Positions 48,333 through 49,843 of a DNA stretch of 50,878 nucleotides are shown here, piece after piece. Below the pieces are notes generated by a model that searched no databases, was not told the origin of the DNA, and saw only the letters and a list, made by a program, of their open reading frames with translations. How positions within the stretch are numbered: position 1 is the first letter of the stretch; each line of letters starts with the position of its first letter. The translations under genes were made by a program, and so were the position numbers. Source of the DNA: Thermoplasmatota archaeon (GTDB taxonomy: Archaea > Thermoplasmatota > Poseidoniia > Poseidoniales > Thalassarchaeaceae); contig JAURCP010000009.1 of NCBI GenBank assembly GCA_030828405.1, positions 1 to 50,878 of the forward strand. The letters run 5' to 3'.

Positions 48333-48596
48333 ATGGCTGTAGAGAACTCAAACGTTAGTGTAGTCGAGGAGAAAGTCCAAGACTGGCAAGACGAGATTGA
48401 GAGCCGTGTACGTAGTCTTCAAACAGGTTCTTATGCAAGAATTCTTAAGATGGCTAGAAAACCTTCCAAAGAAGAATTTCGTCAAACAGTAATTGTTTGT
48501 GGAATTGGAATGTTTGTGCTTGGAGGAATTGGATTTGTCATGTTATATCTGATGGACAATCTACTACCTTCATTCTTTGATTGGTTAACGAAGTAA
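48333..48596 (+). CDS. secE: Protein translocase subunit SecE/Sec61-gamma
   Basis: An 87-residue tail-anchored component of the SecYEG channel. An acidic, amphipathic N-terminal helix (about 10-45, with KPSKEEFRQT) precedes a single hydrophobic helix at 52-75. It begins the archaeal SecE-Spt5-L11-L1-L10 cluster. GAGG at 48322-48325 is spaced about seven bases from the ATG. A GC-rich leader of about 40-50 bases precedes it, and a TATA-like GCTTAAAT lies upstream at 48286. Stop and the Spt5 start are separated by a few bases only. Confidence 0.93.
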   Translation: MAVENSNVSVVEEKVQDWQDEIESRVRSLQTGSYARILKMARKPSKEEFRQTVIVCGIGMFVLGGIGFVMLYLMDNLLPSFFDWLTK

Positions 48597-48612: not shown

Positions 48613-49479
48613 ATGTCTGATGCATTTACAGTATTTATTCGTCATGAGGAAAAAGTTCTGCTTATGCAAAGAGCGGATGAGGTATCTGATTTACCCGGTG
48701 CTTGGGACGGAGTTTATGGCTATGGAGACCACAACGATCTAGATAATGTAGTATCTAGAATCGTAGAATCAACAGGAATACCCGCAGAAAAATTACAACA
48801 TGTTAGAACTGGAGAATCAAGAGGAATTGCAATGGGTAATACTCTATTAGAGATTACACCTATACTGTTCATTTCTGAAAGTAATGTTGTTACCCCTAAA
48901 ACATTGTACAAAAATTCAGAATGGGTAGATCCAGGAATGATTGGTAAGAAAGAATACTGTACTCCAAGTCTTAGAGATATGTATGGAGATGTTGCTTCTT
49001 TCTTGTATATCCTCAAAACTAGTATCGGTCAAGAGCAAAATGTGGCGAAAGAGATTCAAGCAAGACTATCAGGAAGTGGTTCACTTATGGATATTCAAGG
49101 AGAAATATATGGTGTATTAAGCCCTAACTACATGAAAGGATATATCTTTGTTGAAGCTTCAGCATTCCATCATGTTGAGAAATTAATTGGTAGAGCGGGA
49201 GTCTCAACAACTCCTATCAAAAACTGTAGAAAGGTATTGGATGGTGAATCGCCTCTTGAAGATGTGCTACCTTACTTAGAACCAAAAGCCGCTACCACAG
49301 GAATCGAAGAGGGTTGTATTGTGGAAATCCATGGAGGAGCATTCAGAGGACAATCAGCACGTGTTATTCGCGTTACTGAGTCAAAGGAAGAAGTTACTGT
49401 CGAACTATTCGAAGCTGCGGTCCCAGTGGCATTAACCGTAAGAGCAGATCAAGTAAGAGTTACACAACGTGTAGAATAA
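48613..49479 (+). CDS. spt5: Transcription elongation factor Spt5 (NusG) fused to an N-terminal Nudix-like domain
   Basis: A 288-residue fusion. Residues 129-215 are the NGN domain (YILKTSIGQEQNVAKEIQAR onward, with NYMKGYIFVEA) and 228-285 the KOW domain (EGCIVEIHGGAFRGQSARV), together forming Spt5, the elongation factor that clamps RNA polymerase with Spt4. Archaeal Spt5 is usually about 150 residues. Residues 2-125 here look like a Nudix fold: VFIRHEEKVLLMQRA, LPGAWDGVYGYGDH and SRIVESTGI. The box lacks the REx2EE glutamates, so it is probably not a normal hydrolase. The start at 48613 has GTGG upstream; TTG at 48598 is possible. Position between secE and rpl11 confirms Spt5. Confidence 0.93.
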   Translation: MSDAFTVFIRHEEKVLLMQRADEVSDLPGAWDGVYGYGDHNDLDNVVSRIVESTGIPAEKLQHVRTGESRGIAMGNTLLEITPILFISESNVVTPKTLYKNSEWVDPGMIGKKEYCTPSLRDMYGDVASFLYILKTSIGQEQNVAKEIQARLSGSGSLMDIQGEIYGVLSPNYMKGYIFVEASAFHHVEKLIGRAGVSTTPIKNCRKVLDGESPLEDVLPYLEPKAATTGIEEGCIVEIHGGAFRGQSARVIRVTESKEEVTVELFEAAVPVALTVRADQVRVTQRVE

Positions 49480-49564: not shown

Positions 49565-49843
49565 ATGTCAGCACGTAATGAAACACCACACAAAGTTGTT
49601 CAAGCGTTAGGCAAAAAGAAATGTAATGGCTCTTGGGAAGAGGCTTCAGAAAATTTGACTATGGATCAAGTTAAGAAGATCGCTACCGAACAGGAAGAAC
49701 GCCTTACGGGCGCTAATCTGTATGCACGGTGCCGCGAAGTAATGGGTACATGTGTAGCAATGAGAGTGAATGTAGAAGGTTACGCACCTAAAGAAGCACT
49801 TGAAAGAATGAGTAAGGGGGAATTCAGCGAACACTTTAGCTGA
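49565..49843 (+). CDS. rpl11: Ribosomal protein L11, C-terminal domain only
   Basis: A 92-residue protein in the usual L11 location between Spt5 and L1. NLTMDQVKKIATEQEERL and EVMGTCVAMRVNVEG, then SKGEFSEHF at the end, match the C-terminal rRNA-binding half of archaeal L11, and TPHKVVQALGKKK matches the start of that half. The N-terminal domain (about 70 residues, contacting translation factors and the stalk) is absent; L11 is normally about 160 residues. The start is firm: a perfect AGGAGGT is seven bases before the ATG, and an in-frame TAG at 49550-49552 closes the frame above. The 85-base leader encodes no missing part. Confidence 0.85.
   Translation: MSARNETPHKVVQALGKKKCNGSWEEASENLTMDQVKKIATEQEERLTGANLYARCREVMGTCVAMRVNVEGYAPKEALERMSKGEFSEHFS

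Follow-up and report, generated by a model that had tools for sequence, protein, structure and literature searches.

Every full-length Spt5 gene found in the order Poseidoniales (both families, 18 genera; a few genomes yielded fragments or nothing for Spt5) encoded an additional N-terminal domain with a predicted Nudix fold. In the window, the whole 50,878-nucleotide stretch of DNA that was analyzed, this domain made up the first 128 residues of Spt5. The protein is a standard Spt5 to which a converted Nudix domain is joined. The domain has lost catalytic residues that its free-standing relatives keep, so it is probably a binding or docking module on RNA polymerase rather than an enzyme.

The spt5 reading frame (48613-49479, forward strand) was open throughout and encoded 288 amino acids with no interruption. 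It started 16 bases downstream of the secE stop codon and was followed by the uL11 gene, which gives the gene order secE-spt5-rpl11 (Table 1). Residues 132-286 matched the archaeal Spt5 equivalog TIGR00405 (E 2e-33, 115.4 bits against a cut-off of 69.95), and the protein is an archaeal Spt5 in having the NGN and KOW parts with a score above this cut-off. The single intact frame agrees with the original prediction, made from this DNA alone, of a Nudix domain fused to Spt5 between secE and rpl11. An Spt4 gene (PF06093) was present in 39 of 40 genomes, that of the window included, and the idea that the Nudix domain stands in for a missing Spt4 was rejected for this reason.

Table 1. Features of the spt5 locus and its neighbors in the window.
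Feature	Position	Strand	Basis
Predicted pseudo-Nudix N-terminal domain of Spt5, residues 1-128	48613..48996	+	AlphaFold2 and Foldseek; Pfam NUDIX in homologs; order-wide conservation
Degenerate Nudix box, residues 36-58, GYGDHNDLDNVVSRIVESTGIPA; RE replaced by SR, EE by ES	48718..48786	+	Residue counts; comparison with aligned free-standing relatives
Predicted Nudix-NGN junction, residues 122-135, DMYGDVASFLYILK	48976..49017	+	Secondary structure of full-length AlphaFold2 model; invariant Y124-G125-V127
Spt5 NGN domain, residues 131-193	49003..49191	+	PF03439, E 3.9e-11
KOW motif, residues 236-264	49318..49404	+	PF00467, E 5e-4, slightly below its cut-off
secE, upstream neighbor	48333..48596	+	PF00584 (SecE), E 2e-5
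uL11 (rpl11), C-terminal domain only, downstream neighbor	49565..49843	+	PF00298 (Ribosomal_L11), E 1.4e-7; PF03946 absent from the order

The downstream uL11 was 92 amino acids long and comprised only the C-terminal RNA-binding domain. Its N-terminal domain (PF03946) was found in none of 79 Poseidoniales genomes, whereas 15 of 18 sister-lineage genomes and all 14 controls had it. This near-universal domain, which is adjacent to the GTPase center, appears to have been lost across the entire order.

No clear fold emerged from searches with one sequence. Residues 1-128 of the window sequence alone had no meaningful match in Pfam, and phmmer with the N-terminal part found one weak match in the PDB, a Nudix ADP-ribose pyrophosphatase (E 0.009); alignments and AlphaFold2 were therefore needed. 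Searching the PDB with a sequence profile was no more than suggestive (NADH pyrophosphatase, E 0.05), and the NUDIX family PF00293 was matched by 14 of 19 members of the order at E ≤ 1, with a best E of 2.4e-6, the window sequence by itself giving no match. AlphaFold2, run on residues 1-128 with 20 members of the order, produced a model (pLDDT 86, pTM 0.81) with the strand and helix order of the Nudix fold, in which residues 43-54 formed the Nudix helix. Comparison of this model with the PDB by Foldseek returned 443 matches at E ≤ 0.001. The 50 listed were all of the Nudix fold and included hydrolases, isopentenyl-diphosphate (IPP) isomerase and the Nudix-type domain of MUTYH, with a probability of 1.00 to Nudix structures and a top match from Methanosarcina mazei (3grn, TM 0.82). 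These models indicate that the N-terminal 128 residues of Spt5 are a Nudix fold, as had been proposed from sequence pattern; a fold search pointing elsewhere had been named as a possible refutation of that proposal, and the search instead gave Nudix structures.

In an AlphaFold2 model of the full-length protein, the last Nudix helix (residues 120-127) led into the first NGN strand (residues 129-135) with zero linker, but pLDDT was below 50 over most of residues 149-229, the NGN part and the interdomain geometry were of low confidence, and the poor model beyond the junction was left unused. Three residues at the junction (Y124, G125, and V127) were invariant.

A survey of Spt5 lengths across the Thermoplasmatota, which had been suggested along with the original prediction, showed the fusion to be fixed in Poseidoniales but not general in the phylum. 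A scan of named genomes confirmed 237 Spt5-Nudix loci, of which the best 80 were kept, and the named records with the fusion were Marine Group II, Thalassarchaeaceae, and Poseidoniales. In the sister lineage of the same class (f3), which we take to be Marine Group III, Spt5 was short, with matches beginning near residue 129, and it was also short in many further families of the phylum. Across the genomes compared, the Nudix-Spt5 fusion is fixed in Poseidoniales and is seen only there.

Two different Spt5-Nudix genes were found in single assemblies (G009; and MAG_45, JAJPRD01, with L161 and L221). These pairs probably represent mixed bins, not paralogs. TFE-alpha (PF02002) was absent from Poseidoniales, and its absence has been reported in Thermoplasmata (PMC7289017). 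Absence of TFE-alpha was ruled out as the reason for the fusion because the short-Spt5 sister lineage was all but without it too, having only marginal matches in very long frames.

Several other families of Thermoplasmatota also had long Spt5 proteins (L081-L100, for example L081, L084, L086, L089, and L092), in which roughly 120-150 amino acids of unrelated sequence precede the usual Spt5 part. Representatives of families f17, f24, f27, f30, f35, f37, f38, and f42 carried a different, beta-rich domain with weak Ig-like matches; this likeness comes from a scan of part of these families, in which four long non-Poseidoniales Spt5 proteins were tested and three gave sub-threshold matches to Ig-like or other domains and one gave none. 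That these proteins might bear the same Nudix domain was considered and rejected after their sequences were read. Since different domains occupy the same position on Spt5 in several families, the gain of an extra domain there seems to be a repeated event. The Spt5-like proteins of f7 and f33 (L097 and L095) had helical-looking repeats at the N-terminus; L097, from this pair, matched PF18780 (HNH_repeat, E 2e-9), and the HNH_repeat motifs were assigned to f7.

Outside Poseidoniales, a profile of the Spt5 domain found free-standing Nudix proteins of about 130-150 amino acids, with E values down to 1e-15. A free-standing family in Thermoplasmatota (L244, L251, and others) kept an intact Nudix box, and its members aligned along the whole Spt5 domain, including the C-terminal motif (EYRWIxPxEI..TVPxL versus EWVDPGxI..TPxL). 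In a phylogenetic tree the Spt5 domains formed one clade (100/100), and a further split (99/99) set the Spt5 domains and most of the free relatives apart from the remaining Poseidoniales Nudix proteins included, where the free set had been gathered with the Spt5 domain's own profile and the contrast consisted of the best PF00293 loci of Poseidoniales only. Because the stem branch of the Spt5 domains was long (2.2 changes per column), it is uncertain which members of the free family are their closest sister, a placement weakly supported at 94/46. The alignments and tree indicate that the N-terminal domain of Spt5 is related to this free-standing Thermoplasmatota family. Poseidoniales genomes encode several other Nudix proteins, yet in nearly all of these genomes the domain profile found Spt5 alone. 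This suggests that a free gene was captured rather than copied, and leaves unsupported the alternative that the domain arose by duplication from a Nudix gene which the order retains.

Some of the free relatives in Thermoplasmatota (L248, L250, L255, L256, L259, L260, and L261) were located behind an apparent aconitase-X swivel domain, which in L255, the sole one scanned, matched PF01989 with E 4e-27. Phosphomevalonate dehydratase contains a swivel domain of this type, a hint that the swivel-Nudix fusion may be connected with isoprenoid synthesis.

Analysis of the former active site showed that the Nudix box had degenerated in Spt5. Five glutamates (E39, E49, E52, E53, and E98) were invariant among the 22 aligned sequences of the free family; positions 49, 52, 53, and 98 correspond to the metal ligands of MutT. 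Among 103 distinct Spt5 domains, position 49 was arginine in 102 and lysine in one, position 53 was C, S, A, V, or T, and position 39 was D or N with a single E, while E52 was retained in 98. Position 98 was L, R, or I in the 19 Spt5 domains aligned. The Nudix box pattern GX5EX7REUXEEXGU, with its metal-binding glutamates, was absent from the Spt5 domain, where the corresponding motif (GYGD...SRIVESTG) lay at residues 36-55 as originally placed. The accompanying claims that the box is degenerate and that catalysis is unlikely are supported, as E49, E53, and E98 of the free family are replaced.

Other positions were held in common or newly fixed. R20, W31, G36, T54, G55, and W104 were common to the Spt5 domains and the free family. 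D32, R70, G71, Y99, and W104 were identical in 103 of 103 Spt5 domains, and D32, R49 (apart from the one lysine), R70-G71, and Y99 were new residues fixed in the Spt5 version. The dN/dS of the Nudix domain among close relatives was 0.03-0.07, which is strongly purifying yet above that of NGN-KOW. The fixation of new residues together with the low dN/dS indicates that the domain was repurposed and is not decaying. It was also acidic (20 D/E versus 12 K/R, pI 4.7), which argues against general nucleic-acid binding and makes recognition of a specific ligand or protein more likely.

The best explanation of these observations, with a rough probability of 0.55, is that the domain is a fused former Nudix enzyme that now serves as a metal-free recognition module on the elongation complex and tunes Spt5. 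A Poseidoniales ancestor would have fused a small archaeal Nudix protein onto the N-terminus of Spt5. Substitution of the catalytic-metal glutamates, with a fixed arginine taking the place of one, would then have abolished hydrolysis, and the domain would have persisted as a non-catalytic module for recognition, lying against NGN. Spt5 of T. kodakarensis contacts Spt4, the two large RNA polymerase (RNAP) subunits, and the upstream non-template DNA through its NGN domain, and its KOW domain reaches FttA at the RNA exit (PMC11616081). Because the Nudix domain is fused directly to the start of NGN, and NGN binds RNAP, it would be carried on every Spt4/5-bound elongation complex, presumably near the RNAP clamp and upstream DNA if the Spt5 structures of other archaea are a guide. 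The remodeled cleft would most likely bind a phosphate-bearing ligand without metal (nascent RNA, its 5' end, or a nucleotide) or engage a partner protein through the same surface. Arg49, in place of a metal-ligand glutamate, could hold a phosphate directly, although a putative protein-docking role fits the fixed Arg49 as well. Binding of the ligand or partner would in turn tune the recruitment or pausing activity of Spt5. The narrower proposal, that a metal-free pseudo-Nudix reader on every Poseidoniales Spt5 couples a chemical feature of nascent RNA or a nucleotide signal to Spt4/5 activity, is tentative and rather unlikely.

Four other explanations were weighed. The domain may be a pure scaffold without a ligand, its rigid surface touching RNAP, Spt4, the ribosome, or FttA or else stabilizing Spt5. 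Its acidity and the junction without a linker favor this, and the unrelated domains at the same position on other Spt5 proteins (the weakly Ig-like beta-sandwich and the HNH_repeat) suggest that a generic docking surface is useful there. The invariant changes at former catalytic positions (R49, and Y99 beside the lost E98) and the retention of R20, W31, and W104 from the free family suggest instead that the cleft kept a function, and the scaffold is a real possibility that is nonetheless somewhat doubtful. A metabolic sensor, which would relay nucleotide or isoprenoid phosphate levels to elongation through a ligand kept from the free-standing ancestor, draws on the conserved W31, R20, G36, T54, G55, and W104 and on the related Nudix domains fused to the aconitase-X swivel domain in some Thermoplasmatota; it is considered unlikely, as several pocket residues differ between the Spt5 domain and the free family.

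An active enzyme with altered chemistry, for example an E52-only pyrophosphohydrolase or an IPP isomerase, is very improbable. E52 is indeed widely retained and there were weak matches to TIGR02150 (IPP isomerase type 1, E about 1e-4), but the score of 22.3 bits was far under the cut-off of 105.8, so the domain does not qualify as a type 1 isomerase, and across the order the metal ligands at positions 49 and 53, like the second-site E98, have disappeared. An annotation artefact, with two separate genes or with translation beginning internally around residue 128, had been named at the outset as a possible refutation of the fusion and has virtually no chance of being correct: the frame extended over the complete N-terminal domain in roughly 55 of 60 related genomes, and the domain is under purifying selection.

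A search of the open-licence literature for Spt5 in combination with Nudix proteins or with either Poseidoniales or Marine Group II found no description of the fusion; the few papers that came up dealt with Spt5 in other settings. If the domain is indeed a pseudo-Nudix reader, it would be a previously undescribed sensory input on a universal elongation factor. Poseidoniales (Marine Group II) are among the most abundant archaea in the ocean, and the fixed domain would give them an elongation input or contact unseen in model archaea. It resembles a converted enzyme whose free relative with an intact site occurs in neighboring lineages, a clean candidate case of enzyme-to-adaptor conversion, and the different domains at the same place in other Thermoplasmatota mark the start of Spt5 as a place where innovation recurs.

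Compared with known systems, the Poseidoniales protein resembles the archaeal Spt5 described by TIGR00405 in its C-terminal match, gene order, and accompanying Spt4 gene, but differs in the extra Nudix-fold domain, and the fusion members of f2 additionally have extra sequence inserted within NGN. Long Spt5 proteins from f17, f24, f27, f30, f35, f37, f38, and f42 have an extra domain of similar length in the same place that is not Nudix. The free-standing Thermoplasmatota family shares the W31, R20, G36, TG, and W104 motifs with the Spt5 domain over a whole-domain alignment, but has E39, E49, E52, E53, and the glutamate of a WEH motif (98), most of which the Spt5 domain has lost. In eukaryotic 3'-end processing, CFIm25 (NUDT21) uses a Nudix fold to bind RNA without catalysis. 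A family-wide screen gave no clear substrate for NUDT21 (PMC5688067). The parallel with the Spt5 domain is one of use; CFIm25 was not among the 50 Foldseek matches listed and, in contrast to that domain, is not attached to a transcription factor. NrtR regulators combine a non-catalytic Nudix-type sensor domain with a DNA-binding domain in transcription. NrtR is a DNA-binding repressor, whereas the Poseidoniales Spt5 is an elongation factor.
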